The notes beneath the pieces are model-generated. The model was not told the origin of the DNA. It saw nothing but the letters and a program-made list of their open reading frames with translations, and did not search any database. From the NCBI GenBank assembly GCA_017475035.1, contig JAFVGK010000058.1, positions 1 through 49,627 of the forward strand: 49,627 nt of DNA, given 5' to 3'. Below are positions 1,469 to 46,419 of the stretch, one piece after another. A program made the position numbers and the translations under genes. Every line of letters starts with the position of its first letter. The first letter of the stretch is position 1. Origin of the DNA: Blautia sp. GTDB taxonomy: Bacteria; Bacillota; Clostridia; Lachnospirales; Lachnospiraceae.

Positions 1469-2767
1469 TCACCGATCCTCCTCAATTTTGATTTCAATGG
1501 TCTTCAGATCCTGGCAGTTATCCAGTATCTTCTTTGTCAGGAGCACTTCTTCCATTTCACCCGGAGCCATGACGCGTCTTTTTTTGCTGATGACCTCTGT
1601 TCCGTTTAATAATACGCTGACGCGCCGGTTCGTCATCACGTCGCCGACACGGTAGCGGATTTTGCACCAATTGCGTATCTTCTGCGGATCGATGGAAGAG
1701 GGCACGGTATAACGGATACCGCCGGAAAAGGAGACCGGAGTGCCGTTGGCTGTTTCCTTTACAGACATCGCGCTGCCGCAGGAAGCCACGTAGACCGCCG
1801 CGCTTTCGCCGGCCAGGGAAGCTTCTTCACTGACATAATCCACCAGATCATGTACATGGAGGACATTTCCGGCGGCAAAAACACCGGGGATCGAGGTCTC
1901 CAAAGACTCATTGACTACGGGGCCATTTGTAATGCGGCTGATCGATGCCCCTAAGCCGATCGTCAGTTCGTTTTCCGGAAGGAGTCCTACCGAGAGAAGG
2001 AGCGTATCGCAGTCGTAGTGCTCTTCGGTACCGGGAACCGGCTTCCGGTCAGGACCGACCTGCGCAATGACGACACCCTCGACACGTTCTTTTCCTTCGA
2101 TACGGACAACGGTGTGGGAAAGCTTTAAAGGAATCCCGAAATCATCCAGGCACTGCACAATGTTTCGCTTCAGGCCTCCGGAATAAGGCATCAGTTCCGC
2201 GCAGACCAGGACTTTCGCGCCTTCCAGGGTCATACGTCTTGCCATGATCAGTCCGATGTCTCCCGAACCCAGGATGACAACCCGTCTTCCCGGCAGATAT
2301 CCCTCAATGTTGACCAGCCGCTGGGCAGTACCGGCAGAAAAAATACCGGCCGGCCGAAAGCCGGGAATATTCAACGCGCCGCGGCTTCTTTCCCTGCAGC
2401 CCATGGCAAGAACCAGCGCCCTGGCTCTTAAAATCAGAAGTCCGTCCGTTTCATTGACGGCGGCAACTTCCTTTGCGCCGTCCTCTGTCTGCACAATCGA
2501 CAAAACCATGGTATCAAGCTTATAGGCGATTCCTTTTTCGGTTACTTTGTCAATAAAACGCTGGGCGTATTCCGGCCCGGTCAGCTCTTCCTGAAATGTG
2601 TGAAGTCCGAAACCGTTGTGAATGCACTGATTCAGAATCCCGCCCAGACGTGTATCCCGTTCCAGGATCAGAATGCTTCTCTCCCCCGCTTCATATGCCG
2701 CGACAGCGGCAGCAAGTCCGGCCGGACCCCCGCCGATGATGATCAGATTATATATGGTGTGTTCCAT
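1469..2767 (-). CDS. NAD(P)/FAD-dependent oxidoreductase of the glycerol-3-phosphate oxidation operon
   Basis: Predicted flavoprotein of about 432 residues. The N-terminal FAD-binding Rossmann motif is GGGPAGLAAA, and a second, NAD(P)H-binding motif GSGDIGLIMARR lies near the middle. An AAGN-x-LHVHDLVD stretch resembles the second FAD contact of the pyridine nucleotide-disulfide oxidoreductase fold. No redox CxxC pair is evident, so it is not a thioredoxin reductase. It sits between the GlpA-like gene (62-72 bases upstream) and the DUF1667 gene (overlapping or a few bases downstream), the standard clostridial order. The likely role is passing electrons from glycerol-3-phosphate to NAD or another acceptor. 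ATG 2767 is chosen over an in-frame GTG at 2776, which is too close to the GGTGAG site. Confidence 0.85.
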   Translation of the reverse strand: MEHTIYNLIIIGGGPAGLAAAVAAYEAGERSILILERDTRLGGILNQCIHNGFGLHTFQEELTGPEYAQRFIDKVTEKGIAYKLDTMVLSIVQTEDGAKEVAAVNETDGLLILRARALVLAMGCRERSRGALNIPGFRPAGIFSAGTAQRLVNIEGYLPGRRVVILGSGDIGLIMARRMTLEGAKVLVCAELMPYSGGLKRNIVQCLDDFGIPLKLSHTVVRIEGKERVEGVVIAQVGPDRKPVPGTEEHYDCDTLLLSVGLLPENELTIGLGASISRITNGPVVNESLETSIPGVFAAGNVLHVHDLVDYVSEEASLAGESAAVYVASCGSAMSVKETANGTPVSFSGGIRYTVPSSIDPQKIRNWCKIRYRVGDVMTNRRVSVLLNGTEVISKKRRVMAPGEMEEVLLTKKILDNCQDLKTIEIKIEEDR

Positions 2768-2838
2768 GGTAATCACTCACCTTTCCTAAAGTCTTCAGGA
2801 GCCATTTTTACAGGAGGAACTTTTCCTGCCTGTGTGTC

Positions 2839-4290
2839 TCACACACGGTCCTTGACCAGTCCTACGATCACCTCTGAATGACCGCCTGATTTTGTGATGT
2901 CCGCCACATCCACGCCCCATTCTTCGGCAAGAATATCCATGATCCTCGGTGAGCAGAATCCCGCCTGGCATCTGCCCATACCGGCGCGCACACGCCGTTT
3001 GACTCCGTCAAGGCTTTTAGCGCCGAGAGGCCTGCGGATTGCGTCGAGGATTGCCCCCTCGGAAATCTGTTCACAGCGGCACACGATACGTCCGTATTCC
3101 GGTTTCTCACGGATCAGTTCCGTAAGCTCCTGAATACTCAGCGATTTCGGGTCAAGAAAGCCTTTTCTCGTACCAACAAAATCCGGATTCTCTGAAAGCC
3201 CCAGTTTTTCGGCAACTTCCTTTGCGATTTCCTTTCCTAATGCAGGCGCGGCTGTCAGGCCGGGCGATTCGATACCGGCGCAGTTAAAGAAATTCGGGGC
3301 ATCGGAAACCTCTCCAAGAATAAAGTCGTGCCTGGCTTCATGGGCACGAAGTCCCGCAAAACTGGTAATGACATCCCTCAGCGGCAGGTCGTCAAAAGCA
3401 AGACCTGCTTTTTCCATCAGATCGTCAAATCCTTCCGAGGTAGTATCCACACCTTCTTTATCGTCTATATCTTCTGCAGTTGGGCCGATGATGGTATTAC
3501 CATGGACAGTCGGGCTGACGAGAACTCCCTTTCCGTATTTTCCGGGTACCTGGAAGACGGTCTGCTTTACATAACCTCCAGTACGGCGGTCGAGGAGAAG
3601 ATAATCTCCCCGCCGCGGAACAATTTTGATTTTCTGCGCGGAAACCATGTTGTGGAGAATATCGGAATAAACTCCGGCGGCGTTGACCACAGCCCTGGTA
3701 CGTATGGCTCCCATAGCGGTCTGCACGATCCAGCAGGGATTTCCTTCTTCGTCCTGATCCGGTGTAAGACCCTTGACCTCAGTGTTAAAATGGAATTCCA
3801 CGCCGTTATTATATGCATTTTCCGCAAAAGCGATCGTTGCCCCAAAGGGACATACAATTCCGGCGGTAGGCGCGTATAAAGCGGCTACGGGAACATGCCC
3901 GACGCTGGGCTCCAGCTCCTTCAGGCGCTCTTTTCCGACGATCTCCAGTCTTTCCACTCCGTTCTTTTTCCCGTTCTCCATCAGGGCTTCGAGCTTTGGA
4001 ATATCCTCGTCGTGGAGAGCCAGCACCAGGGAACCATTGTTCTTATAGGCAAAGTCCAGCTCCTTTGCCAGCTCCGGATACATCCGGTTGCCAAGCAGAT
4101 TGTATTTTGCCATCAAGGAACCGTGGGCGGCGTCAAAGCCCGCATGGATAATGGCGGAATTGGCTTTGGAAGTGCCTGTGCAGACATCCTCCGACCGTTC
4201 CATAACTGCGAATTTCCCGCGGTACGCCGAAAGGAACCGTGCGATGGCGCAGCCGGTTACACCCGCTCCGATAATTACTGCATCATACAT
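2839..4290 (-). CDS. GlpA-like glycerol-3-phosphate dehydrogenase with BFD [2Fe-2S] domain
   Basis: FAD-dependent dehydrogenase of 483 residues that probably oxidises glycerol-3-phosphate to dihydroxyacetone phosphate. The dinucleotide-binding motif GAGVTGCAIAR is at the extreme N-terminus, followed by the DAO fold. The C-terminal BFD-like [2Fe-2S] region has CRCEQ about 75 residues from the end and a second pair in GRCQAGFCSPR. This is the anaerobic GlpA layout, not the GlpD one. ATG 4290 is preferred: GGGAG is 8 bases upstream, whereas the in-frame ATG at 4296 is only 2 bases from it. It leads the three-gene minus-strand operon. Glycerol kinase is 32 kb away in this window, so the pathway is split between two loci. 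Confidence 0.85.
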   Translation of the reverse strand: MYDAVIIGAGVTGCAIARFLSAYRGKFAVMERSEDVCTGTSKANSAIIHAGFDAAHGSLMAKYNLLGNRMYPELAKELDFAYKNNGSLVLALHDEDIPKLEALMENGKKNGVERLEIVGKERLKELEPSVGHVPVAALYAPTAGIVCPFGATIAFAENAYNNGVEFHFNTEVKGLTPDQDEEGNPCWIVQTAMGAIRTRAVVNAAGVYSDILHNMVSAQKIKIVPRRGDYLLLDRRTGGYVKQTVFQVPGKYGKGVLVSPTVHGNTIIGPTAEDIDDKEGVDTTSEGFDDLMEKAGLAFDDLPLRDVITSFAGLRAHEARHDFILGEVSDAPNFFNCAGIESPGLTAAPALGKEIAKEVAEKLGLSENPDFVGTRKGFLDPKSLSIQELTELIREKPEYGRIVCRCEQISEGAILDAIRRPLGAKSLDGVKRRVRAGMGRCQAGFCSPRIMDILAEEWGVDVADITKSGGHSEVIVGLVKDRV

Positions 4291-4343
4291 TTTCATATCT
4301 CCCAAATCAGAATACATGGAAATTTACTTGATTCTATTCTGAT

Positions 4344-4372
4344 ATTGTAACATATGACCTAATGAATTTCAA
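4344..4372 (-). promoter_or_regulatory. Sigma-A promoter of the GlpA-like operon
   Basis: Read on the minus strand: TTGAAA, 17-base spacer, TACAAT. It lies 54 bases ahead of the chosen GlpA-like start. ATGACC (4354-4359) and GGTCAT (4389-4394) flank it as a loose dyad that could be an operator; that part is weak. Confidence 0.75.
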
Positions 4373-26939: not shown

Positions 26940-26948
26940 TTTTTGGCG

Positions 26949-26994
26949 AAGAAGCATAGCCTGACCGGAAGGTTCAGACAATGCTTCTTTTTTT
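26949..26994 (+). terminator. Terminator of the liv operon
   Basis: AAGAAGCAT...CTGACC pairs with GGTTCAG...ATGCTTCTT across a 4-base loop, with a T-run of seven or more. Confidence 0.92.
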
Positions 26995-27119
26995 ATCACA
27001 GCAAAGACGCCGATTGAAAATATGATACCTGGCTGTAACCGATGCTGCTCCGGGGCAGAGGGAGCGCCTGTGCCTTCCTCTGCCTGCTTCAGGGTCATCG
27101 TCACGATCCCCCCCTGCCC

Positions 27120-27271: not shown

Positions 27272-29911
27272 ATGAAAAAGAAAGTTCTGTGTCTGTTCCT
27301 CGCACTGTTCATCATTTTCTGTATTTCTGCATTCACAGATGCCGAAGAATTCACGGTGGGAGACTGGGTATTATTATTGGAAAACGGCACCGCCAGTATT
27401 TCCCGCTATATCGGTCATGAATCGGAAATCACGGTTCCTACCAACGCGGAAATTCTTGGGCAGACCTATCGGATCCGTACTGTGGGAGACGGTGCCTTTG
27501 AAGACTGCACCTATCTTACGAAGGTCACAATTCCCGAAGGCATCGCCACCCTGGGGCATTATGCTTTCCGCAACTGTACGATGCTTGCACGGCTGGAAAT
27601 CCTGGGGGATCTTTCAGACGGAGATGCCCGCTCCGTTAAAGGCAACGGCGAATACTATGCCAGTGAACGAAGCATCAACAATTCCATATTTTACAATACC
27701 GGGAAAAACGCCGATTCTTTTACCGTGATCTTTGGCGAAGAGGTTACCCGCATTCCTGCGTATCTGTTTGCGACGTCTCCGGATAAAAGTGAAGATGTCT
27801 ATGCTCATGTTACGGATCTTGTTATCGGAAACAGAACGGCAGAAATCGGAGAATATGCTTTCTACCGCTGCTTTGATCTGAAGCAGATTACCTTTGGAGA
27901 CGAGCTGTCCGGAATCGGGAAATCTGCCTTTGGCGATAATACCAGCCTGACCGAAATATCCTTTAATCAGCAGCTCTTACAGATCGGGGAAAATGCTTTT
28001 TCCGGCAATACGCGCCTTTCCATGGTTAACTTCAATCCAAGACTTGTGACGATTCATGCCGGAGCGTTTGAAAACTGCTCCTCCCTGATCTCACTGGAAT
28101 TTCCGGAAAGTGTCGCGACGATCGACAGCTATGCGTTTCAAAACTGTACCAGGCTTTCTTCCGTGACAATTCACGGAAAGACAGGCACACAGGTCAGGCT
28201 TGGGGATGGAGCCTTTCGTCATTGCACCGGCCTTTCCGAATTAATGATCGATGCTGATATCGCTCCCTGCAAAGCGGAATCCATGGGCAGCAACGGAGAA
28301 TATTACGCTGTGAACCGCAGCGAAAATAATTCCGTTTTTTATGATACAGGCAAAAATTCAGACAGCTTTCATGTCGTTTTTTCAGACCGTGTCAGCAGCA
28401 TTCCGGCCTATCTCTTTGCCAGTTCGCCGGATAAGGCTGATGATGTATACGCTCATCTTACCGGCGTCGCGATCGGAGAAAATGTCCGGGAAATCGGGGC
28501 TTTCGCATTTGCCCGCTGTTACAGCCTGGGTGAGCTTACACTTGGCAAACAGGTCAGCATAATCGGAGAGAAAGCATTTCTGGATGACTCCTCCTTAGAG
28601 GAGCTTGTGTTCAATGAAAATCTGTTCCGGATCGGGGATTATGCCTTCTCCGGGAATATCGGCTTAAGGCAGGCCGCTCTGAATCCAAAGCTTTCGGAGA
28701 TCGGCAAAGGAGCTTTCTCCGGCTGTACGGCCTTACTTTCCATGATGATTCCGGATTCTGTCATGACAATCGGAGATTACGCTTTCGAAAACTGTACGCG
28801 GCTTTCCGGCGTACGGATCAACGGACTGGCCGGTATAGAAATTTACCTTGGCTGCGGCGCATTCCGAAACTGCACGGCGATGACCTCTGTAATTATCAAC
28901 GCGGATATCAGCGACTGCAGGCCGGAATCCGTAAAAGGAAACGGCGAATATTACGCTTCGAACCGTACGGAAAACAACTCTGTGTTTTACAATACAGGAA
29001 ATAACGCGGAACCTTTTACCGTCATTTTCACGGAACCGGTCAGCCGGATTCCGGCTTATCTTTTTGCCAGCGGCCAGCCAAACAGTGACGATGTATATTC
29101 CCATATTACGAGCGTCGTGATCGGCAATTCCGTTCACGAAATCGGGGATTATGCTTTCTACCGCTGCTTTAACCTTGACACAGTCATCATGGGGAACCTG
29201 ATTTCCTTTATCGGGGAGAATGCTTTCGGAGAGGATAATCTTTTAACGCAGGTTCGTTATGCCGGTGAAACCAAGGAATGGGGAGATATCGATATCGGCG
29301 CAAATAATGATTTCCTGGTGGATTCTTCCAGAGATTACGAATTTGATCCTGAATCTGAGATTTCTTCTGAGATCGCGGCTTTTGAAGAACAGACGGTTGT
29401 ATGGGCAGAAATTCCCGGGGGAGAAAATGCTTCTTCAGACACAGACAGTTCTGCTGCCGCTTCTTCCGCTGCGGCTCCTGAAAACACGGCACTGGAGCCC
29501 TTTGCTGACGAAGAACCAGTCTATGACGATGGCATTCTCTCAGTCCTTGATCAGGCCAATATCCTTGACAGGTCACGATCCGGAGAATATCTGGGACTGG
29601 TACGCGAGTTTACCAGAAAGACAGGAGCCTGGTTCCTGTTCATTACCACGGCGGATACCGGCAGAAAGGAATCCAACGATAAATGGACGTATTTTGACAG
29701 GATGATCGAAGCCTTCGGCGATGCTTCCAGCGCAGAAGGCGGCATTGCCTTTGTTTTTGACCGCGCGTCAACGGATGTACTGGCAGACGCTTATGGAAGC
29801 TTTGGCAGACAGCTGACAGATGCCCGGTGGGACGCGATATTTGCGGAGATGACAAAACCCGGCAGCATGACACAGAATCTGATCGATACGCTGCATCTGT
29901 TGAATGAATAA
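27272..29911 (+). CDS. Exported leucine-rich repeat protein (LRR_5/BspA type) with C-terminal TPM-like domain
   Basis: Protein of 879 residues. A signal peptide (hydrophobic core about 5-20, cleavage near AFTDA|EE) is followed by BspA-type repeats of the form IGxxAFxxCxxLxxVxI over about residues 55-680. These are arranged in a super-repeat of exactly 216 codons: the GEYYA block recurs at residues about 127, 343 and 559. A Ser/Ala/acidic linker (about 705-745) leads to a last segment of about 125 residues (SVLDQANILD... TGAWFLFITTAD... GGIAFVFDR... FGRQLTD) that resembles the TPM domain. No sortase motif or C-terminal membrane segment is seen, so attachment to the cell is unknown. BspA-type LRRs often mediate adhesion or binding. 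GGGAGGAGG precedes the ATG. It leads three consecutive exported-protein genes without terminators between them. Confidence 0.8.
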   Translation: MKKKVLCLFLALFIIFCISAFTDAEEFTVGDWVLLLENGTASISRYIGHESEITVPTNAEILGQTYRIRTVGDGAFEDCTYLTKVTIPEGIATLGHYAFRNCTMLARLEILGDLSDGDARSVKGNGEYYASERSINNSIFYNTGKNADSFTVIFGEEVTRIPAYLFATSPDKSEDVYAHVTDLVIGNRTAEIGEYAFYRCFDLKQITFGDELSGIGKSAFGDNTSLTEISFNQQLLQIGENAFSGNTRLSMVNFNPRLVTIHAGAFENCSSLISLEFPESVATIDSYAFQNCTRLSSVTIHGKTGTQVRLGDGAFRHCTGLSELMIDADIAPCKAESMGSNGEYYAVNRSENNSVFYDTGKNSDSFHVVFSDRVSSIPAYLFASSPDKADDVYAHLTGVAIGENVREIGAFAFARCYSLGELTLGKQVSIIGEKAFLDDSSLEELVFNENLFRIGDYAFSGNIGLRQAALNPKLSEIGKGAFSGCTALLSMMIPDSVMTIGDYAFENCTRLSGVRINGLAGIEIYLGCGAFRNCTAMTSVIINADISDCRPESVKGNGEYYASNRTENNSVFYNTGNNAEPFTVIFTEPVSRIPAYLFASGQPNSDDVYSHITSVVIGNSVHEIGDYAFYRCFNLDTVIMGNLISFIGENAFGEDNLLTQVRYAGETKEWGDIDIGANNDFLVDSSRDYEFDPESEISSEIAAFEEQTVVWAEIPGGENASSDTDSSAAASSAAAPENTALEPFADEEPVYDDGILSVLDQANILDRSRSGEYLGLVREFTRKTGAWFLFITTADTGRKESNDKWTYFDRMIEAFGDASSAEGGIAFVFDRASTDVLADAYGSFGRQLTDARWDAIFAEMTKPGSMTQNLIDTLHLLNE
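27600..29200 (+). repeat. 648-base super-repeat inside the LRR gene (about 2.5 copies)
   Basis: The GGC/GGA-GAA-TAC/TAT codons of the GEYY block fall at 27647, 28295 and 28943, exactly 648 bases apart each time. Flanking residues (NNSVFYNTGKN, RIPAYLFAS, VYAH) also recur in register. This indicates whole-unit duplication rather than drift of single LRRs. Confidence 0.85.
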
Positions 29912-30011
29912 GTTATGGTAAACGAAAAAAATACCTGTATTTTGATTTGTTTACTGAGCCGGATTTACGCGGCGTATTCCGTATACTTCCGCAGTAAATC
30001 CGTGCGCATAC
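29907..30011 (-). repeat. Dispersed repeat B, copy 2 (inverted)
   Basis: Reverse complement aligns to 15274-15380 along its whole length: GTATGCGCACG, ATTTAC-GCGGAA, GCCGC, GTAAATCCGGC, CAGTAA, AATCAAAAT, CAGG and TTCGTTTAC. It begins at the LRR stop codon and fills most of the spacer before the lectin-like gene, so its hairpins would be in the shared transcript. Confidence 0.75.
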
Positions 30012-30048
30012 TATATGTGCACATACAATATATGCAAGAGGAGCTGCC

Positions 30049-33000
30049 ATGAAAAATAAAGCTTTCATGAAAAAAATATTGCTTTTGTTCTGGATGCTTG
30101 CCGGAATCCTGTTCTTTTCCGGTTTCAGCGGCGAGAACAGAAAGGTCATGGACTATCTGAGCGTTACATTCTCCGGGATCGACACACAGGGGGAGTTGAC
30201 CCTGCATTTTGACCGGGACCGGCTTAAGGCAGAAATCTACGACCGGATGGAAATGACAGAACGGCAGAAGCTGACGCTCGACCAGCTGCTGTCGGACGTA
30301 GAGCTGGACTTCATTTTGTCCGGAAAAACAGGTCTCACCAACGGAGACGAAATCAAAATCAAAAGCGGGTTTGACGAGAACCTGCTTTCTGATTACGGTA
30401 TTGTTTTTGAAAACGGGACCCTTACAGTAACTGTGGAAGGCCTGATGGAACCGAAAAAGATCAACCTGGGAGACGCCGTCAAAATCACGCTGACAGGAAT
30501 CTGCCCTTCGGTCACGGTTCATCGGGAAGTCGATGAGACGGTGCCTTATTATCAGTGGACCTCTCTGCCGAACCTTCCGAGAGAGGAATCCATTGTCGCT
30601 GAACCAGGTGAAACCCGCCGGGAATCCATCACTTATGACGAAGAAAAGATGTTTGCGCAGGGCTATGTTGTGGTCAATGATTCCTACGAATACACAGTTT
30701 CCGGTCTTGATACATATCAGCTGTCAATCGAAGAAGCAGAGGATCCGCGTCTGGATGAATTATATGAAAAAACAGATGAACTTTCATGGCAGAATCTAAG
30801 CTATCAGTCAAACCGTATATTAGAGATTCTTCAGAAGAAAAACAGCTACCTTGTCTGGGATGATGTCCGGCAAACCATCGATGAAATCAGGATTGGCTAT
30901 CCTGAGGGAGATTTTTCAAAAAATGAACTTGTCGTGATCGGACATTATGACCTGCCCGTCCGAAGCTATAAAAGAGAGATTTCCTGGGAAAAACTGATAT
31001 TTAATGTGATTTACAAGATGGTTCGCCTGACACAGGACAATACTTTCGCAGTTGATACGGAACCTGAAGTCTGGTATCCGCAGATTGACATGGAACAGCT
31101 GAATCCGAAGCTGGATCAGAACTTTTCTTCTTTTCTTGAAGAAGGATACCGGCTTCAGACATTTGAGCTTTCTCATCAGGCTGAAGAAGAAATGCCGGCA
31201 TCCATTACGATCCCGGATGAACCATGCCTTCCCTGGTCAAAGGATGTCTCCATTACGGAGCCTGTCCATGCTCCCTCGGAAATCGAAAAGCTTGCCGCCG
31301 CCGGTCCCGTTTTCCTGGATGGACATACCTATTATCTGTTCGAAGAAATTAACGGAAAAATATACAGCAGAAAAAATGCCGTGACCTTTTGTAAAAAAGC
31401 AGGCGGCCATCTTGCAACGATCACCTCTGCCAGAGAACAGTATGCCGTCAACGAGCTTTTTCACAATCTATCCCTCCGGTACTTTTGGGCCGGCGCTACG
31501 GATATCATGTATAAGGGAGCCTGGAAATGGGAAACCGGAGAAGACTTTCAATGGAACAACTGGACGAGCGGCTCACCGGATAACAGATATAATAACGAAA
31601 ACTGCCTGGCACTCAACGCGAGGGATGGTGGAAGATGGGTTGACCTGTCCTCAGAAGAGCAGGACGTTGGTTTTCTGCTGGAAATGGAACCGGAGCCAGC
31701 TGCGGAAGGCATTTCACCTTACAAGGAAAATGTTTATCTGACCGATCTTCAGGCTTCCTGTCTGCAAAATGCCCGGATTTCCGAATACATGATGGATCCT
31801 TACGGAAACAGATATTTTCAATCCCTGAATTTGATTGCCAGAAATAACGGAAAAGTCGAATACGATCTGGACAGAAAATACGCATCTCTTTCCTTTATTC
31901 TTGGGACTTCGGATGAAGCCAATCGGGAAACCTGTATCGATATGATGATCTGGGGAGACGAAAAGCTTCTCTTTACGGTATACGGATACGGAAGAGCTGA
32001 CGCCCCGATTCCTGTCTTGCTGGATGTAAAAGATGTCAGCAGAATTTCCATCCAGACAGCGTCTCATGCCGGAAACGGAAATTTCTTCCTGAACCAGGCA
32101 ATTCTTACGCCCGCCAGACAGCAGGAAATTTCTTCTTCAACGGCTGTTCAGGAAAAACACTATTTGATCGATATCCCTGCCGTTTCCACCCGACATGCTG
32201 ATATCATAACGGGTTATGGAATGATGACGGATTCTGCAGGGAGACTGTACCGTGATGCTGTGAAGATTTCGACAAAAAACACCGGGGAGGTTGTTTTCCG
32301 TCTTCCTGCCGGTTCGGAAAAATTCAGAGGAAAGCTCGCAATGGCCACAAATCCAGGCAGTGATAATTCTTCTGCTGTTGTAGAAATCCTGGGGGACGAA
32401 AAGATTTTGATGGAAGAAGAGATTACGCCTTATTCCGACGTTCTGCCCGTAGATCTGAATGTCGAAGGAATCAGAATTCTCAGTATCAGAGCCAAAAATA
32501 ACCCTGCAGAAGGAGAGATTAAGACGGTTCTTTTGGGGAATATCTGCCTGGAAGTCATGTCCGAAAAAACCCGCGTGACTGCTGCCGGTCTGACAATGCC
32601 TGAATTTCCTCAGCTGGATCCGGTGATGGAAAGAAATGCTGCTGCGGTGTTAATTTGCGGAAATTATAAGTACTATCGTTATGATCAGGCCGTTACCTAT
32701 CAGAAGGCCAAAAAAGACTGCGAAAAAGCCGGCGCTGCCCTTGCCATGCCTAAAACGGAAAAGCAGAACCGCGCCATCCAAAGTCTGATCCAGAACGGAC
32801 TTTGGGATAATTACAGAGCATACTGGATCGGGGGCTATCAGTCAGGAAATACTTTTCTCTGGCAGGATCAGACGCCGATAAGCAAGACGGGATATACCAA
32901 TTGGTCCGGCAAAAAACCGCGTCACCAGGGGGAAGACGGAATCGTATTGTCCATGGAAAGAAACGGAATATGGAGAGACTCTGATACCAGTAACCCCGCA

Positions 33001-33846
33001 GGTTTTGTCCTGGAGGTAAAGGCAGCTGCCTCTTTGCAGCCGGAAATCGGCGAACAGCTCTCCCGACTGCCAGCGGATGTCCGGGAAAATTTCGAAGTAT
33101 TCGACTATATTACACAGGACAGACGCTTTCTGGCAGACACGATCCAGCTGCGGGCAGATAAATTCGGTTACGCACAGTGGTCTCTGGAAGGAAAATATCT
33201 CGCATTGACTGCAGCCTTACTGCCCGGCAAAGACTTTGACTCCAATGCACTGGCAAATTTCGCGATTTTCGGGGATGGCATTCTGCTGTATCAGCAGGAG
33301 GGGATCCGGAAAGGAACCGAACCGCGTTCCATTCTTCTTGATCTTTCCGGAATCAATACCCTTACCATCAAATCCTCGGCGAACCTGAATTCTTTTCTCT
33401 ACATAACGGAACCGACGCTGTATCCGGCCGGAAGCGCTGCGTCGAATGGCGTAGACCGGCTCAGTTTCCTCAAGGTGATCGACCAGGTCAACACGGAAAC
33501 ACGGAATACTCTTACGGAAGATATCTACGGCCGATTCCACGACAGCGCTGTGGGCATCAATGCTTCCGGAAACGGTTATTTCCTTTACAACCTGGACGGG
33601 AAATACACCTCCATGGACTGCAAAGTGGTCTCTACAAGCCAGACACGGCAAGACCAGACCAGGACTGTCAGAATTCTCCTCGATGGAGAAACGGCTTATG
33701 AGAAAGTACTGGAAGGATATTTTCCTGATACGGAACCGATTCATCTGGATCTGAAGGGTGTTTCGACTATAAAAATAGAAGCAGAAGGAAACGCAGACGG
33801 AGTCAATGATTTTATTTATATTGTAGACGATCAGCTGATTATGTGA
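30049..33846 (+). CDS. Exported multidomain protein with two C-type lectin-like and four NPCBM-like domains
   Basis: Protein of 1265 residues with a signal peptide (core about 8-24). The N-terminal part (about 33-170) looks like Ig-like domains (YLSVTFSGIDTQG, LTNGDEIKI). A C-type lectin-like domain lies at about 420-546: FCKKAGGHLATITS, WAGATD, WTSGSPDN, ENCLAL, GRWVDL. NPCBM-like beta domains follow at about 563-690 and 704-843. A second lectin-like domain lies at about 872-995 (DCEKAGAALAMPKTEKQN, YWIGG, WSGKKPRHQGEDG, IWRD). Two more NPCBM-like domains lie at about 1014-1128 and 1138-1265. The NPCBM assignment rests on the repeated pattern of YDLDGKY/LEGKY, a DG or GDE loop, and a final IxLDLxGVxxIxI strand. 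Both module types usually bind sugars, so a glycan-binding surface or secreted protein is the simplest reading. No enzyme domain or cell-wall anchor is visible. Confidence 0.75.
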   Translation: MKNKAFMKKILLLFWMLAGILFFSGFSGENRKVMDYLSVTFSGIDTQGELTLHFDRDRLKAEIYDRMEMTERQKLTLDQLLSDVELDFILSGKTGLTNGDEIKIKSGFDENLLSDYGIVFENGTLTVTVEGLMEPKKINLGDAVKITLTGICPSVTVHREVDETVPYYQWTSLPNLPREESIVAEPGETRRESITYDEEKMFAQGYVVVNDSYEYTVSGLDTYQLSIEEAEDPRLDELYEKTDELSWQNLSYQSNRILEILQKKNSYLVWDDVRQTIDEIRIGYPEGDFSKNELVVIGHYDLPVRSYKREISWEKLIFNVIYKMVRLTQDNTFAVDTEPEVWYPQIDMEQLNPKLDQNFSSFLEEGYRLQTFELSHQAEEEMPASITIPDEPCLPWSKDVSITEPVHAPSEIEKLAAAGPVFLDGHTYYLFEEINGKIYSRKNAVTFCKKAGGHLATITSAREQYAVNELFHNLSLRYFWAGATDIMYKGAWKWETGEDFQWNNWTSGSPDNRYNNENCLALNARDGGRWVDLSSEEQDVGFLLEMEPEPAAEGISPYKENVYLTDLQASCLQNARISEYMMDPYGNRYFQSLNLIARNNGKVEYDLDRKYASLSFILGTSDEANRETCIDMMIWGDEKLLFTVYGYGRADAPIPVLLDVKDVSRISIQTASHAGNGNFFLNQAILTPARQQEISSSTAVQEKHYLIDIPAVSTRHADIITGYGMMTDSAGRLYRDAVKISTKNTGEVVFRLPAGSEKFRGKLAMATNPGSDNSSAVVEILGDEKILMEEEITPYSDVLPVDLNVEGIRILSIRAKNNPAEGEIKTVLLGNICLEVMSEKTRVTAAGLTMPEFPQLDPVMERNAAAVLICGNYKYYRYDQAVTYQKAKKDCEKAGAALAMPKTEKQNRAIQSLIQNGLWDNYRAYWIGGYQSGNTFLWQDQTPISKTGYTNWSGKKPRHQGEDGIVLSMERNGIWRDSDTSNPAGFVLEVKAAASLQPEIGEQLSRLPADVRENFEVFDYITQDRRFLADTIQLRADKFGYAQWSLEGKYLALTAALLPGKDFDSNALANFAIFGDGILLYQQEGIRKGTEPRSILLDLSGINTLTIKSSANLNSFLYITEPTLYPAGSAASNGVDRLSFLKVIDQVNTETRNTLTEDIYGRFHDSAVGINASGNGYFLYNLDGKYTSMDCKVVSTSQTRQDQTRTVRILLDGETAYEKVLEGYFPDTEPIHLDLKGVSTIKIEAEGNADGVNDFIYIVDDQLIM

Positions 33847-33921
33847 ACGGTTTTCGGCCTTTTAAACGATTGCGCTTCGTCCGAAAAACGCTGACGTAGT
33901 TCATGCGGAAAAGAGGAAAAC

Positions 33922-36138
33922 ATGAATAAATGTATCAAATCCTTTATCTGCAGGGGAGTGCCGCTCTTTTGCCTGCTGCTGTGCTTATGCCGGATCTGTG
34001 CTCCTGCTGCCGCAGAGACTGATTCTTCGGATTTTGTCTGTGAAGGCAGTGACCAGAGAGTTCTGACCGCAGAGGATGTAACAGACATGTCAGAGGAACA
34101 GATCCTGTATGCGAAGGCGGAAATATATGCACGTAAGGGAATGATCTTCGCAGATGAAGTGATGAACGCTTACTTTTCCCGGAAACCCTGGTACTTTGGA
34201 TTCCTGTCGGAAGAAAACTTTGATGATTCTTATCTCAACACAGTCGAACAGCAGAATGTGGATTTCCTCAATGAAATGCTGAGTGGGGAAGCAGGCACGG
34301 AAACCACCGTCATAATCGCAGTGGAGAACACCACGGAAGAGACCACAGTTATATCTGATCCGGAGGCGGACACAACAGAAGCGTCCGCAGCTTCCGCGGC
34401 AGCTGAGGACGTTCTTATCGAAACAACGCAGACGCCGGCTGCGGTCCGGAGAGAAAGCCGGGTTTCTGATGATGAGACACAGGAATCGACGGCAGGGGAA
34501 GCTATAGAAGTCATCCCGGAAGTAACAGCCGAAGTTTCTGAAGAGACAACCGAGACGGCTCCCACACCGACCCGGAGAGAAAGCCGGGTTTCTGACAATG
34601 AGCCGAAGGAAGCGGCAGCAATGGACGCTATAGAAAGCATCCCGGAAGTTATAGCCGAAGTTTCTGAAGAGACAACCGAGACGGCTCCCACACCGACCCG
34701 GAGAGAAAGCCGGATTTCTGATATTGATCCACAGGAAGATGCGGCAGAGGAAGCCTTAGAAGTAATCTCAGAAGAAACAACCGATGCGGCTCCGATTTCG
34801 AACCGGAGGGAAGCTGCGCTTTCTTCAGAGGAAAAGCCAGATCAGGCTCAGGCATTTGCCCTGGGGGCAGCCGCAATGTCAGCAGCAATGCAGAGCCATG
34901 CCTCAGATGACAGACCTGATGTGATTACCTCAGATGACATAGTCCCATCTACAGAGAACCAGGCGAAAGGTAATACCGGAAAAAGCGATACCGGAAAAGA
35001 TGCCATTTACAGCACGCAGACAACGTCTGACACTGATGACAGTGAACCGACAGTCGAAGCAGTCATGACTGATTCTGCCGGAACATATCATCTGACATGG
35101 GAAATCGATGATTACGTGATTTTAAACATGGGTTCAGAATTGCGTATGGATCAATCGTCAGGCTCTTATACGGAAGACGAATATGAAGCAGCCCTCATTC
35201 GTTCCCTGACCGGACAGGCCAGGTTCCTGAAAAACGGAAAATACCCGGAGGGATTGGTCGCCTTCGAGCTCAGGCAAATCAACCGGCAAAATCTGATTTA
35301 CGCGCAAGAGCTCGGAATGTCCCTGGAATCCTTCATCAGCGAGGTCATGGGAATTACCTATGACAACTATATCCGGGATGCCATGAAGCAGGCAAAGAAA
35401 AATGCCGAAGAGGATCTTTGTCTGATCGCCTATGCGAAAAAAGTGAGCAATATCGATGTCACGAAAAAACAATACAAAAACGGTGTGAAACGCCATGCTG
35501 AGATCATGGGCTATTCGGATACCAAAGAGTATAAAAAGGACTATTCAAAAACGGAAACGGTCTACTGGATTCTCAAAGACAGAGGATTATCCAGGCTGAA
35601 ATCCAGAAGTTCTTCCGGTTCCCGCACAGAGCCGGTGCAGAATGCGGCGGCAGGAGCTGATCCGTCTTCCCATCCTGAAGAACGTCCGGTAGATGAGCCG
35701 GTCATTTTGCCGAATGGGAGCATACTCATCGGGTATGTCAACGCTTCCGCCGGAAACACACCGGATTCTCCCAACGTTTCAGCGATTCGGGACCCCAGAC
35801 TGGAATATCTGTTCCCGGAAGCAGACAGCAGATATATTGCTTGGAATGAAGTAAGTTCTCTGACACAACAGGCGGTATGCTACGCCAAGAATGAGATTTA
35901 CGCGAGACACGGAAGGAAATTTAAGTCTGTTGAGTTACAGCAATATTTCGCTTCCAAGAGCTGGTACAACCCGACCATCGAACCGGAGCTTTTCCCGGAA
36001 TCCGTTTTCAATTCCTATGAACGAGCCAACATAGACCTGCTGGTACAGGAAGAAAGACGGAAAGGAAACGGAGCTCTTTATGCACTTGACCGTCCCGGCT
36101 ATGATATCCATGCGGTGGGAACGGCAAGCTATAAGTGA
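33922..36138 (+). CDS. Exported YARHG-domain protein with tandem repeats and a trigger-factor-like central domain
   Basis: Protein of 738 residues with a signal peptide (core about 12-30, cleavage near APAAA|ET). The first YARHG-like domain (about 48-118) has YARKG at 69-73 and the aromatic YFSRKPWYFG block. The C-terminal one (about 635-715) has a perfect YARHG at 660-664 and YFASKSWYNP. Between them is an acidic Thr/Glu-rich region with a 42-residue repeat (RRESRVSD unit; three good copies and one degenerate), then a helical region at about 405-555. That region (ELGMSLESFISEVMGITYDN, EDLCLIAYAKKVSNIDVTKK, HAEIMGY) resembles the C-terminal chaperone domain of trigger factor. YARHG domains are extracellular with unknown function. 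AAGAGG precedes the ATG. Last of the three exported-protein genes. Confidence 0.75.
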   Translation: MNKCIKSFICRGVPLFCLLLCLCRICAPAAAETDSSDFVCEGSDQRVLTAEDVTDMSEEQILYAKAEIYARKGMIFADEVMNAYFSRKPWYFGFLSEENFDDSYLNTVEQQNVDFLNEMLSGEAGTETTVIIAVENTTEETTVISDPEADTTEASAASAAAEDVLIETTQTPAAVRRESRVSDDETQESTAGEAIEVIPEVTAEVSEETTETAPTPTRRESRVSDNEPKEAAAMDAIESIPEVIAEVSEETTETAPTPTRRESRISDIDPQEDAAEEALEVISEETTDAAPISNRREAALSSEEKPDQAQAFALGAAAMSAAMQSHASDDRPDVITSDDIVPSTENQAKGNTGKSDTGKDAIYSTQTTSDTDDSEPTVEAVMTDSAGTYHLTWEIDDYVILNMGSELRMDQSSGSYTEDEYEAALIRSLTGQARFLKNGKYPEGLVAFELRQINRQNLIYAQELGMSLESFISEVMGITYDNYIRDAMKQAKKNAEEDLCLIAYAKKVSNIDVTKKQYKNGVKRHAEIMGYSDTKEYKKDYSKTETVYWILKDRGLSRLKSRSSSGSRTEPVQNAAAGADPSSHPEERPVDEPVILPNGSILIGYVNASAGNTPDSPNVSAIRDPRLEYLFPEADSRYIAWNEVSSLTQQAVCYAKNEIYARHGRKFKSVELQQYFASKSWYNPTIEPELFPESVFNSYERANIDLLVQEERRKGNGALYALDRPGYDIHAVGTASYK
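34447..34830 (+). repeat. 126-base tandem repeat in the YARHG gene
   Basis: CGGAGAGAAAGCCGG starts at 34447, 34573 and 34699 (126-base period, 42 codons). A degenerate fourth unit begins near 34804. Units two and three are almost identical at the DNA level, so copy number could vary between strains. Confidence 0.85.
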
Positions 36139-36214: not shown

Positions 36215-36243
36215 TTGACATGACTTTTCTTCCATAGTATGAT
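36215..36243 (+). promoter_or_regulatory. Promoter of glpK
   Basis: TTGACA, 17-base spacer, TATGAT, about 67 bases before the glpK start. Confidence 0.8.
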
Positions 36244-41129: not shown

Positions 41130-42740
41130 TTAAATATTCATTCCTTTAAACTCAAAGCCCATCATGGTCATGTCGTCGAACTGAGGCTCATCCTGAGCAA
41201 AATCATTGATTGTTTTCCTGACGGTATGCAGAAGATCTACCAGCGAAGAGGTCGGGTCGATATTCAGGGCTTCAACCAGCCTGTCCGTGCCGAAAAGCTC
41301 TTTATCGGTATTATTTGCTTCTGTTACGCCGTCTGTATAGACGAAAACCCTATCGCCCGGATATAGCTGGAACTCATGTTCCCGGAATTTCAACCCTGAC
41401 ATGATGCCGACTGCAGCTGTATGCCTGTATTCCACCAACTCATATTTCCCGCCTTTCCTGCAAAGAACAGGATGCTCATGCCCTGCATTGGAGACCATCC
41501 CCTTTCCGGTCCGAAGATCCAGAATCGCTAACCACACCGTCACAAACAGATTTTCATCATTTCCTTCACAGATCTGCTCATTCACGTCATACAGGATTTC
41601 TGCAGGGCTTCCGCCCATCTGTGCCCGGTTTTTAATCAGCGTTTTGGCAATGACCATAAACAGGGCAGCCGGAATTCCTTTTCCGGATACGTCCGCCATG
41701 ACCATGGCAAGGGTGTTCTGGTCGATCAGGAAAAAGTCATAGAAATCCCCTCCGACTTCCTTGGCGGGATTCATCGTCGCGTAAACATCACAGTCCGTCC
41801 TCTGGGGAAACGCCGGAAAAGTATTAGGAAGCATATCTGCCTGTATTTTTCTTGCTACATCCAGCTCTGCGCCGATGCGCTCTTTTTCAGCCGTTACCTG
41901 CGCGATTTCTTCCGTATATCTTTCAATTCTTTCCACCATGTTGCCAAAGGAAATGGAAAGATGTCTTACTTCGTCGTCTTTTCGGAACAGAGATTTATCA
42001 AGCACCAGCTCTTTATGTCTATAAGAGTCGACGCTCATATTCAGCAGTCCGATAGGAGCGATGACACTTCGATCCATATAGATCAGAAGAAAAATCAGCA
42101 CGAGAGCAACACACAAGGTAAAAATAAAAATGATGCGTGTCACAAAATTGTTCAGATCACGCTGGAAATAAGGAAGCAGATAGTCCAGCTCAACCATTGC
42201 CCGGACGTTTCCCTCCTTATCCAGGATCGGAGCCCAGGTGCTTAAGCCGGCGCCATAATACTCGTTGTTCTGGAAAGTAATCTCTTCGTGAGCTTTTTTT
42301 GCCTCGATATCAGGAAGTATATATTTATATTCAAACTCCCTGTATTCAAACTCATCTCCCCATTCCGCAATATAATCCAGATCATCCTCCGGAGTCCGCG
42401 CTTCATAAAGATATGTGAAGCTTGTCTCATGCGGAATAAAAATATAAAGATAAAGGGGAGAACGGGCACTGATCTTCATATAATCATAAAAGCTCAGAAG
42501 ATCCTCGACATAATCGTCTGTTTTTCCTGTTTCAGCATATTGTGAGATTTTTTCCCAGTCGGTTCGTTCTACAACAACGCGGACCATCTGCTGTGCTTTC
42601 TCGTCGTAAAAGCGCAGATAAGTATTGCGGAAGGCATAGTAACTTACCGTGGAAATAATGGCGGCCATCAGCACCATCAAGGAAAGCAAAACAAATGTAA
42701 TACGTTTACTCAATCGCTGCTTCATTTTTGGTTGATCCAT
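41130..42740 (-). CDS. Membrane-bound SpoIIE/RsbU-type PP2C phosphatase with extracellular sensor
   Basis: Sensor phosphatase of 536 residues. A membrane segment at about 14-36 and another at 202-222 enclose an extracellular Cache-like domain (YLYIFIPHE, STWAPILDKEGNVRAMVELD). A HAMP-like linker and coiled coil (about 223-300) and a PP2C domain (about 312-530) with AKEVGGDFYDFF and MADVSGKGIPAALFM follow. This family dephosphorylates anti-sigma antagonists (STAS proteins) in partner-switching pathways; no STAS or anti-sigma gene is in the window. ATG 42740 is chosen since GAGGA lies 8 bases upstream and the start is 14 bases from the acetyltransferase stop. Last gene of a three-gene minus-strand unit. 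Confidence 0.88.
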   Translation of the reverse strand: MDQPKMKQRLSKRITFVLLSLMVLMAAIISTVSYYAFRNTYLRFYDEKAQQMVRVVVERTDWEKISQYAETGKTDDYVEDLLSFYDYMKISARSPLYLYIFIPHETSFTYLYEARTPEDDLDYIAEWGDEFEYREFEYKYILPDIEAKKAHEEITFQNNEYYGAGLSTWAPILDKEGNVRAMVELDYLLPYFQRDLNNFVTRIIFIFTLCVALVLIFLLIYMDRSVIAPIGLLNMSVDSYRHKELVLDKSLFRKDDEVRHLSISFGNMVERIERYTEEIAQVTAEKERIGAELDVARKIQADMLPNTFPAFPQRTDCDVYATMNPAKEVGGDFYDFFLIDQNTLAMVMADVSGKGIPAALFMVIAKTLIKNRAQMGGSPAEILYDVNEQICEGNDENLFVTVWLAILDLRTGKGMVSNAGHEHPVLCRKGGKYELVEYRHTAAVGIMSGLKFREHEFQLYPGDRVFVYTDGVTEANNTDKELFGTDRLVEALNIDPTSSLVDLLHTVRKTINDFAQDEPQFDDMTMMGFEFKGMNI

Positions 42741-42754
42741 TTTGTTATCCTCGC

Positions 42755-43309
42755 TTAAAGACGATGCAGTTCTATCTGGGCACCGCAGACACAGTTCTTT
42801 CCGCAGATCGGGCATTCCATTCCATACTTATACAGATCACTATAAAACCTCGGAATTGTTTTTTCGTAGATTACATCTCCGTTAAAAGGGACGATCTTTT
42901 TCGCAGGGATGATCCCATCCGGATGAATCCAGGCTTCCGTGAGAAAATATTTCCCTCCCCGCTCCCTGGACATGACAGTAATGTGCCGTGCCAGTTCACT
43001 GGCGATTCCTCTGCCCCTGTATGCAGGATTTACGTAAAGAGTATCACCGGTAATGATTTTTTCGTCTCCGATCATTTCCCGGATAATCCGGTACATTTCA
43101 GGATGGGGAAGTGTAAATTCGATCCTGCCTTCTATACAGGTATAAAAACCGACAATCTCTCCGTCCTCCACGGCTTTTACTCCAAAATAATCCTTCAGAT
43201 CCTTCCGACTGTTAATATCTTTGATGATTTTTTCACCGTGCGTAAGGTGGCGTTCGGAAAGAACAGCTATGGTTTCTATATCATCGGAACAAATCTCACA
43301 ATATTGCAT
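42755..43309 (-). CDS. GNAT acetyltransferase with C-terminal cysteine cluster
   Basis: GNAT-fold protein of 184 residues. The acetyl-CoA-binding motif A reads YVNPAYRGRGIASELA. The last 25 residues hold CPICGKNCVCGA, a likely zinc site not usual in GNATs. The substrate is unknown. AAGGAG precedes the ATG. It lies between the MFS-fusion gene (128 bases upstream) and the phosphatase gene (14 bases downstream) on the same strand, so it is probably co-expressed with both. It may belong to the same response or be a passenger. Confidence 0.8.
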   Translation of the reverse strand: MQYCEICSDDIETIAVLSERHLTHGEKIIKDINSRKDLKDYFGVKAVEDGEIVGFYTCIEGRIEFTLPHPEMYRIIREMIGDEKIITGDTLYVNPAYRGRGIASELARHITVMSRERGGKYFLTEAWIHPDGIIPAKKIVPFNGDVIYEKTIPRFYSDLYKYGMECPICGKNCVCGAQIELHRL

Positions 43310-43437: not shown

Positions 43438-46419
43438 TTACTCTGATGGAATATCTTCTTCCGTTCTATAAATAGCAGAATCTCTCCTCAGCAGAAAAGC
43501 GAAAGTCATTGCCAGCACAAGCAGCGTAATACAGAAGATGCCGGTGCCTTTACGATAGCCAAAAGCCAGTAACGATCCATAGACAACCGGCCCGAGAGTC
43601 TGCCCCAGGCTTTCGAAAACAGAGTAAATACCCATCGATTTTCCTGCGCCATAATGCTGGCTTTCGGGTGTCATCTCAAAATACGTATACTGACAGGTGT
43701 AGGCAAACGAAATAAGCACAGACAGAATCACTACACCAGCTACGACACTGACCATATTCGGATGTATGACATACACCAGCATATTCACGCCCATAGCAAT
43801 ACTGCTGAGAACGACACTCCACAAAGCGCCGAAAATTTTCAGGATCCATTCTGACAGATAAGGACCTGCATAAATCACAACGATACCACAGATCAGATAG
43901 AGCTGTCCGATACGGACTTCCGTTATACCATGTTCCGTGGCGACAAGCGGGAAGAAATACTCCCTGTAAGAAAGCGCCATCATAAACGGAAGAAGCAGCA
44001 GAACAAAGAAACCGATCACACGACGGCTGAACATAAACTCCCGGAAATCCGCAGGGTGTTTTCCGGAGTCTTCCTGCATGCCCTTAAGAGGTCTCACATC
44101 GCCGGAACTCATGGCCAGAAAAACACCGATTCCTGTAATAACGGCACCTGCAATATAAATCAACTGCCAGCCACGCAAAGACAAAAGCACGGAAGACAAG
44201 CCGGCGCCGATGGTCAGTCCGGAAAGTGTTCCGGCAGAAATCCCGGCAAATGCAGCAGCTGCCTTTTCACTGTTTGTATGCATGGCAGCAACCGTATTGC
44301 ACCCTACGTAAACAAGACCCATACCGGATCCGATGAGCATTTTTCCTACTAAAATGGATGAATAATTCGCCCAGGCTACACAACATAAAAAACCAGAGAG
44401 CTGGACAAACATGCCTAGGGAAATGACCTTTCTGGAACCAAAACGTTCTGTCAGACGGCCGGCAAAGAAGGAAAACACAGCCATCATAAGAAGCTGCGCT
44501 GACATAGGCAATGCGATCGCGACGCTGTCGGGAACAGGAAGCCCTCCATGATAAAGCTGACTGCACAGGATTGCAATAAAAGCATCCTGCATGGAATCGG
44601 CGAGATAGGAGATAAATACCAACGTCCGTACAGGCACCAGGTCTGCCTGATCCAGGTAAATCCAGCTGGATTTGTTCTGGAAAAAGCTGATCAGGAAAGT
44701 GAGTTCCAACAGCAGCATGGTCAGAACGACTGTACTTACCGCGGCATTGATCATCAATTCCCACCTGAGCTCATTCTGGCTGTGCGTCAACGCGTCAAGG
44801 CTTCGTCCCACTTCCAGCTCAGCGACAATGTTGCCTTCTTTATCATAGACAGGAGTAAGCTGGAATGTCCAGGCTCCGTAGGAACTGATTTCTGAAACCT
44901 GGATTTCTTCTCCTGTGTGAAGAACCCTGGCATACTCATTGTCTTCCGGGTTATCCTCATATACCGGATAAGACACCGGCATAGTATCTTCAAAGTCCAT
45001 GATGTAGGAGACATTTCCATTTAAAACCCGATAGATAATGTAATAATAATAATCCCCGCTTTCGTAATATTCCCAGGTCTTTTTATCCAAAGGCTCTTTG
45101 ATACGTTTGTATGCATCTGAAGAATAATCTTCAGGATTGTCTAATTCCTCCAAAGAATCCTGATCGATATTTAAAAGAAGCATTTCCGCAAACAAGTGCG
45201 TCTGTTTCTCGATAAATTGCGTACTGGTACTCATGAGACGGCTGAGAAACAGATAGGATACAATAAAAAAAACGGCAAGGCAAGCCACGACAATCAACAT
45301 TACGCGCATGGCGTTTTCATTCCGGGAAACGAGAATGCCGATCCAGAAAAGCAATCTGCCTATAAAGATAAAAAAGACAAGAATTCCTAATATCAGCATC
45401 GCCCAGGTAAAGAGCACCCGCGAATAAAAGGATACTTTTGCGGCATCCACGTAAAAAGGAGCAGAACTCAGGTGATCGGAGGTCACTTCAAAACGATAAA
45501 AACCGGCATAATCTGTGGCAAGTATTGTCTCTTCGTCTTTTGAAACATCCAGTTTATAATATGAGAGATCCTCTGATTCATAAAAGACAGTCGTTCTTTC
45601 CGGCTCCGCAATGGAAAAATGTTTGATGGAAAAATCTGTCAGATCCGTGTAATAGACCTGACCGTTTCGCGCGCAGATATCAAAGGGAACCCCTCCCTGT
45701 TCCCTGACCTGTTTCGGGGAAAGCTGACCTGAGATATTATACAGCTCTATCGTACCGATCCGGTAGATGACAGCAAGCGTGCCTGTTTCAATATCAAAGG
45801 AAGCATCTGTCTTTACACCGTCGGCCGGAATATCAGCCACTTCCGCAACAGAACCGTCAGCATTGATTTTCTGCACTTTCAGACTTTTCCGATCATCAAG
45901 AACGAAATAGATCTCATCTTCATACTCCTGCAGTTCCAGAATTCTGCCATACTGTAACGGAGTGTCCTCTTTTGCGGCCTGTGTATAATCAATCTGATAA
46001 AGAACTTCTCTCCGGGATCCATTCAGACGGATGATCCTTTCACTTTCCAGAAGGTTTCCGCGAATGCCGTAAGAGATATCTGCGATATAAATGCTTCCGT
46101 CTGAAGTCTGCGCGGCATGGCAGACATAGAAGAAAGGAGTATGCGAAGTTCCGCCTTCATAACGGCGTATCAGCCGATCTTCGGCATCAAGTACCAGCAG
46201 TGTTTTCTTACCATTGTCTATGACCAGTGTCCTTCCCTCACTGCCAAAGCTCAGTTCACTGGTCGATTCTAAAGAATAAAAGGGTTTCTGATCAAGCAGA
46301 GTCCTGTGAGACCACACATAAAGCAGTGGAATTGCCGCTAAAAAAAATAAAATCAGAAAAACCACGGCTTCAAATCTGCTGATTTTTTTGTTATTCTTTT
46401 TCTTTTCATTTGTTTCCAT
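43438..46419 (-). CDS. MFS transporter fused to extracellular propeller-like and Cache-like regions
   Basis: Unusual 993-residue membrane protein. Order: cytoplasmic tail; membrane segment at about 17-36; extracellular region (about 45-330) with repeated beta-strand/loop units (ADISYGIRG, YFVLDDRKS, AVIYRIG, VYYTDLTDF, ILATDYAGF) that suggest a beta-propeller; segments at about 335-364 and 371-393; a second extracellular region (about 395-553) with YYYYIIYRVLNGNVSY and TPVYDKEGNIVAELEVG, Cache-like; a segment at about 555-580; then a 12-helix MFS domain (about 598-975), with the MFS loop reading GRLTERFGSRK. AAAGGA precedes the ATG. The transported substrate is unknown. The Cache-like region resembles that of the SpoIIE-type phosphatase downstream, suggesting a shared signal. 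First gene of the unit, with its own promoter. Confidence 0.8.
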   Translation of the reverse strand: METNEKKKNNKKISRFEAVVFLILFFLAAIPLLYVWSHRTLLDQKPFYSLESTSELSFGSEGRTLVIDNGKKTLLVLDAEDRLIRRYEGGTSHTPFFYVCHAAQTSDGSIYIADISYGIRGNLLESERIIRLNGSRREVLYQIDYTQAAKEDTPLQYGRILELQEYEDEIYFVLDDRKSLKVQKINADGSVAEVADIPADGVKTDASFDIETGTLAVIYRIGTIELYNISGQLSPKQVREQGGVPFDICARNGQVYYTDLTDFSIKHFSIAEPERTTVFYESEDLSYYKLDVSKDEETILATDYAGFYRFEVTSDHLSSAPFYVDAAKVSFYSRVLFTWAMLILGILVFFIFIGRLLFWIGILVSRNENAMRVMLIVVACLAVFFIVSYLFLSRLMSTSTQFIEKQTHLFAEMLLLNIDQDSLEELDNPEDYSSDAYKRIKEPLDKKTWEYYESGDYYYYIIYRVLNGNVSYIMDFEDTMPVSYPVYEDNPEDNEYARVLHTGEEIQVSEISSYGAWTFQLTPVYDKEGNIVAELEVGRSLDALTHSQNELRWELMINAAVSTVVLTMLLLELTFLISFFQNKSSWIYLDQADLVPVRTLVFISYLADSMQDAFIAILCSQLYHGGLPVPDSVAIALPMSAQLLMMAVFSFFAGRLTERFGSRKVISLGMFVQLSGFLCCVAWANYSSILVGKMLIGSGMGLVYVGCNTVAAMHTNSEKAAAAFAGISAGTLSGLTIGAGLSSVLLSLRGWQLIYIAGAVITGIGVFLAMSSGDVRPLKGMQEDSGKHPADFREFMFSRRVIGFFVLLLLPFMMALSYREYFFPLVATEHGITEVRIGQLYLICGIVVIYAGPYLSEWILKIFGALWSVVLSSIAMGVNMLVYVIHPNMVSVVAGVVILSVLISFAYTCQYTYFEMTPESQHYGAGKSMGIYSVFESLGQTLGPVVYGSLLAFGYRKGTGIFCITLLVLAMTFAFLLRRDSAIYRTEEDIPSE

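Follow-up and report, generated by a model that had tools for sequence, protein, structure and literature searches.

BspA-type leucine-rich repeat (LRR) proteins function as adhesins, and sugars are the ligands of NPCBM domains. The title of one study presents YARHG as 'in search of a function'; the available parts of this study propose peptidoglycan binding and report fusions to zinc-ribbon, kinase and peptidase domains (PMC3355149); those of another give the first structure and propose ligand sensing (PMC3848476). Neither study, in these parts, describes a fusion of YARHG to trigger factor.

We analysed a window of 49,627 nucleotides from a Blautia genome, in which an earlier note had singled out three successive genes, here called A, B and C. 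Like BspA-type surface proteins (PF13306), A consists mainly of LRR_5 repeats after an export-type N-terminus, but it has a TPM-like tail, which is missing in its nearest orthologue. This tail can be aligned to six TPM-domain proteins (PF04536) of the Lachnospiraceae family, but it sits behind the LRRs and has neither the membrane segment nor the Gly-rich end of those proteins. B resembles other multi-domain proteins with Lectin_C (two copies in B) and NPCBM (four copies), families that are also combined in two of its near-full-length relatives (loci L187 and L188, in genomes G211 and G176; the third is L186, in G105). However, identity to these relatives is 27-32% across the full alignment, and B has extra unnamed N-terminal domains. 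C shares with YARHG-domain proteins (PF13308) an export-type N-terminus and the YARHG domain, of which it has two, but it carries one near each end and a Trigger_C-like domain between them. This middle part matches the C-terminal domain of exported FKBP/trigger-factor-type lipoproteins, although C has no FKBP or Trigger_C match in Pfam and no lipobox visible by eye. A, B and C are new combinations (architectures) of known domain families. We consider it probable, at roughly 0.6, that they make up an accessory set of cell-envelope genes, specific to the lineage and drawn from common Lachnospiraceae exported modules, and not a conserved multi-protein system.

Genetic organisation and transcription signals of the locus

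The locus is flanked by a branched-chain amino acid ABC transporter (liv) operon on one side and by a glycerol-kinase-type gene (glpK) on the other. The ORF coordinates, together with Pfam, confirm three large genes in tandem on the plus strand (Table 1), with gaps of 137 nt between A and B and 75 bp between B and C. Judging from hydropathy and by eye, the export-type N-termini attributed to the three proteins are supported, and all three are probably exported. B has no clear signal-peptidase site, and its N-terminus may be an uncleaved anchor. The sortase motif and C-terminal anchor said to be absent are indeed absent: scanning for hydropathy and motifs revealed in A, B and C neither an LPxTG-like motif nor, beyond the N-terminus, any strong hydrophobic segment, C-terminal membrane segments included. 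The second hydropathy window above 1.2 in A (1.28, residue 482) is located within the LRR region. Elsewhere in the window, positions 43438-46419 encode a 993-aa protein whose top-scoring MFS stretch starts at residue 601.

Table 1. Features of the A-B-C locus and its flanks (positions in the window).
Feature	Position	Strand	Description or basis
Terminator-like stem + T-run 3' of livF	26948..26996	+	Intrinsic type; sequence; fold z -4.23
Gene A	27272..29911	+	879 aa; export-type N-terminus, BspA-type LRR_5 array
TPM-like tail of A	29543..29854	+	Residues 758-861; Pfam and alignment to TPM relatives
A-B gap	29912..30048	+	Three consecutive predicted hairpins, no T-run
Gene B	30049..33846	+	1265 aa; hydrophobic N-terminal segment, 2 Lectin_C + 4 NPCBM
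Unnamed repeated domain of B	30121..30720	+	Residues 25-224; beta-rich, pLDDT about 80-94 over most
Possible NTF2/cystatin-like domain of B	30775..31170	+	About residues 243-374; modest confidence
Lectin_C 1 of B	31366..31659	+	Residues 440-537; Pfam
NPCBM 1 of B	31840..32073	+	Domain scan
NPCBM 2 of B	32272..32505	+	Under single-domain cut-off
Lectin_C 2 of B	32656..33048	+	Limits approximate
NPCBM 3 of B	33175..33378	+	Domain scan
NPCBM 4 of B	33547..33813	+	Domain scan
B-C gap	33847..33921	+	Folding ordinary, z -0.02
Gene C	33922..36138	+	738 aa; export-type N-terminus, YARHG - acidic linker - Trigger_C-like - YARHG
YARHG 1 of C	34033..34275	+	Pfam
126-bp tandem repeat	34446..34761	+	2.5 copies; codes part of the acidic linker of C
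Trigger-factor C-terminal-like domain of C	35233..35604	+	Residues 438-561; profile match
YARHG 2 of C	35803..36054	+	Pfam
Promoter-like site 5' of glpK	36215..36243	+	Consensus match only, 11/12

The terminator-like structure after livF, whose stability is equalled by none of 200 shuffles, sets the liv operon apart from A. It was missed by our loop-limited scan for stems followed by T-runs, and the same scan found no such structure in either gap between the three genes. The claim that no terminator separates them holds to this extent, but the A-B gap is strongly folded (z -3.68, with 0 of 200 shuffles as stable; no Rfam match for its hairpins), so that a single A-B-C transcript is a candidate. 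At the other end, the promoter-like site ahead of glpK suggests that C may be the end of the gene set; it counts for little as evidence because the promoter-consensus scan gave 16 sites against 13.9 expected by chance.

Domain architectures of the three proteins

The LRR_5 match of A is strong (E 2.4e-99, 328.5 bits for a cut-off of 27.7, six stretches), and the protein contains three super-repeats of about 216 aa, with the motif NGEYY at residues 125, 341 and 557. The TPM-like end that had been proposed is weaker: the tail scores 17.6 bits in the scan of the whole protein, under the cut-off, and 22.1 bits, exactly the cut-off, when scanned by itself. It aligns with six proteins, from 6 of 396 other genomes of the family, all of which pass the Pfam TPM cut-off (77-155 bits). 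On the strength of these alignments, the tail of A is probably related to TPM-domain proteins.

The two lectin-like and four NPCBM-like domains ascribed to B are both recovered by Pfam, both above the curated cut-off, with 96.3 bits in two stretches for Lectin_C (PF00059) and 92.7 bits over the protein for NPCBM (PF08305), three of whose four stretches pass the cut-off singly. Apart from these four, the window's genome has no NPCBM match at E<=0.001. The first ~350 residues of B have no Pfam match above cut-off; they include the repeated beta-rich domain, which several members of the family also have in zinc-ribbon and lipoprotein-like proteins. According to a structural model with mean pLDDT 70 and pTM 0.38, an NTF2/cystatin-like domain is perhaps present as well. 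Of four relatives of B, those of L187, L188 and L189 have in their signal region what we take to be a lipobox-like cysteine, which is found neither in that of L186 nor in B. Relatives of the N-terminal domain, at ~25-33% identity, are encoded on Enterococcus plasmids (H1, H2, H4) and in a faecal 'Bacteriophage sp.' record (H6). In L189 (7818-11134), a sigma-70-type (ECF-like) protein that carries a long additional region is encoded directly upstream of a lipoprotein-like gene carrying this domain; in L093 (2821-6653), a protein of the same kind precedes a 126-aa ORF and then such a lipoprotein-like gene.

C carries YARHG domains at both ends, as had been described (76.7 and 55.6 bits, both above cut-off), and its motif reads YARKG at residue 69 and YARHG at residue 660. 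One further YARHG gene is present in the window's genome, on contig C16. By homology to exported FKBP/trigger-factor-like proteins, the middle of C is a Trigger_C-type domain: it matches a profile of seven such proteins with 61.6 bits, when the best of 200 shuffles reaches 8.8, and the one among the seven that was scanned with Pfam (L163) has FKBP_C and Trigger_C, the latter at 5.9e-20. C itself has no direct match to Trigger_C (PF05698) at E<=10. Neither this domain nor the unnamed N-terminal domains of B figure in the earlier note. The 877 distinct ORFs of the fetched loci, truncated copies included, comprise 51 that are YARHG-like and 18 that are trigger-factor-like; only four are both, each of them a copy of C that comes from the contig of the window.

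Relatives and their genetic neighbourhoods

Relatives of the three genes differ in frequency (all counts include the window's own genome). Within the genus, those of B occur in at least 8 of 64 genomes (E<=1e-15), those of A in at least 2 (E<=1e-40) and those of C in at least 45 (E<=1e-5), nearly all of the latter via the C-terminal YARHG only. In the family, at least 36 of 150 genomes have a B relative, mostly covering part of the protein, and at least 70 have a C relative; in the order, B relatives (E<=1e-20) were found in at least 3 of 392 genomes, with up to two candidates scored in each. The whole of A was searched for in the 64 genus genomes, and its tail beyond them.

Among the matches listed (B in genus, family and order, C in family and genus, A in the genus only, with draft assemblies among them), there is no second genome in which A, B and C are adjacent. 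None of the B relatives whose surroundings were examined has both other genes adjacent, and the stretches around the near-full-length ones in G105, G176 and G211 contain no A or C relative and have differing neighbours. In L128, positions 2251-4350 encode a protein 28% identical to the SpoIIE-domain protein of the window (41130-42815); it lies ~3.4 kb from the best B relative, and the window protein 7.3 kb from B.

The nearest relative by glpK DNA (76%), G180, is a draft that is 90% complete, and its relatives of the three genes are on separate contigs. The A orthologue, on C274, is 53% identical over 743 residues and lacks the TPM tail; the B relatives, on C47 and C117, cover part of its length; and the C relative, on C21, shares only the last ~105 residues of C. 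As C274 stops 164 bp beyond A, a B neighbour could be missing from the assembly. The 1,144 bp upstream of the A orthologue hold a small ORF (L154:3050-3343, L154 being this short contig) that presumably encodes an IS200-like transposase, and no livF gene, the sole match to a window gene being 15 residues to livF (E 0.008). As far as fragmented assemblies show, homologues are scattered among related genomes, which is the outcome that the earlier note had named as speaking against a system. Conservation of adjacency across species is not supported, and the evidence runs against a conserved three-part system.

B-type and C-type genes are, by comparison with chance, unusually close. They lie within 5 kb of each other, always on the same strand, in 6 of the 34 genomes that have both, when 0.27 pairs are expected under uniform placement, a null that ignores the general clustering of exported genes (P(>=6) = 5e-7). 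In four genus genomes of this test, B was searched at E<=1e-15 only, and G094 qualifies through a single C-type match, which covers the trigger-factor region and not YARHG. The pair of G014 is at least partly one ORF, with an in-frame stop upstream, and is probably a single gene, and the pairs of G156 and G169 have a neighbouring gene in common; after correction for these cases, about four pairs count as independent (P(>=4) = 2e-4). The excess suggests that B-type and C-type genes may have a common task, and there may be a looser link, seen in sequence at the level of domains, between B-type and YARHG-type envelope proteins.

A-like genes were rarely found in such neighbourhoods. Of 42 fetched stretches, 38 contain an ORF of B or C type (E<=1e-3), and an A-like ORF occurs in one of these 38. 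The 38 include three named copies of other stretches, L179 lies within L103, and some stretches were chosen for holding B and C types, so the set is valid for the A count only. The lone case, L095, comes from contig C16 of the window's own genome, where a TIR-LRR_5 gene follows the other YARHG gene on the same strand at a distance of 4.8 kb. Its product is 25% identical to A in part but has a TIR domain and not an exported architecture. The one-strand order in L095 (964-9000) is the YARHG gene, a 983-aa fn3 protein, a 517-aa ORF and the TIR-LRR_5 gene. The other A-like stretch, L154, has neither a B- nor a C-type gene. L089, L129, L177 and L180-L182 contain gene groups whose products have zinc-ribbon-like N-termini and include lectin, NPCBM or YARHG proteins; the groups of L129 and L181 are followed by the same pair of genes.

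Possible functions of the three genes

As an accessory set, A would be a BspA-type LRR adhesin or a binder of proteins or surfaces. B would be held in the membrane by its N-terminus, with beta-rich stalk domains extending outward and the two lectin and four NPCBM domains binding glycans at the far end. C would be held at the wall by its YARHG domains, and its trigger-factor-type domain could bind unfolded or partner proteins on emergence. At the surface, each would probably serve attachment or glycan capture, either by itself or in loose association with the other two. Of the complex for these tasks that the earlier note suggested, the binding-type domain content is retained and the conserved three-protein system is not. 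The accessory-set reading is supported by the domains, the scattered relatives, the A-like neighbour in one of 38 stretches, the counts of B matches in genus and order, the livF terminator and the weak promoter-like site before glpK; the B/C-type pairs, the TIR-LRR_5 gene near a YARHG gene in the same genome, the draft state of G180 and the restriction of the search for A to the genus count against it.

Exported genes are common and same-strand triples are expected by chance, so the locus might be a chance run of functionally unlinked genes. This fits the differing domain families and the lack of any conserved order found, but the linkage of B and C types suggests a neighbourhood that is not wholly random, and we regard it as somewhat unlikely. 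A clade-restricted surface complex, with B for glycan capture, A for contact with the surface of a host, protist or microbe, and C as scaffold or chaperone of both at the wall, is unlikely. It would account for the adjacency on a single strand with short gaps free of T-run terminators, the domain-level B/C linkage and the Trigger_C-type domain of C, but it sits poorly with the strongly folded A-B gap, the rarity of A-like genes near B- or C-type genes and the lack of a second genome with the trio among the matches listed (those of A within the genus).

B and C alone might instead belong to a family-wide envelope-sensing gene group, with A an unrelated neighbour. Such groups would consist of zinc-ribbon membrane proteins with a lectin, YARHG or B N-terminal domain, with NPCBM or YARHG proteins and sometimes sigma-factor proteins nearby. 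The B/C-type pairs within 5 kb, the zinc-ribbon proteins bearing lectin or B-type domains, the sigma-70-type proteins close to B-type lipoproteins in L093 and L189 and the association of YARHG with zinc ribbons in the available parts of PMC3355149 all point this way. However, the 20 larger window ORFs scanned have no zinc-ribbon or sigma-factor match, and the pairs themselves are tempered by the simple null, the probable single gene and the two cases with neighbours in common; we find this improbable. More speculative, and distinctly improbable, is a chaperone-plus-clients surface cassette in which C, as a wall-tethered chaperone with its Trigger_C-type domain between two wall-binding YARHG domains, helps very large exported binding proteins, A and B among them, to fold or keep their place outside the membrane.

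The accessory-set reading corrects the view of the locus as an undescribed system. The YARHG / Trigger_C-like / YARHG protein may tie YARHG to protein handling at the wall, and the N-terminal part of B adds a beta-rich repeat domain, exported and unnamed in Pfam, that recurs in lipoprotein-like and zinc-ribbon proteins across several members of the family.
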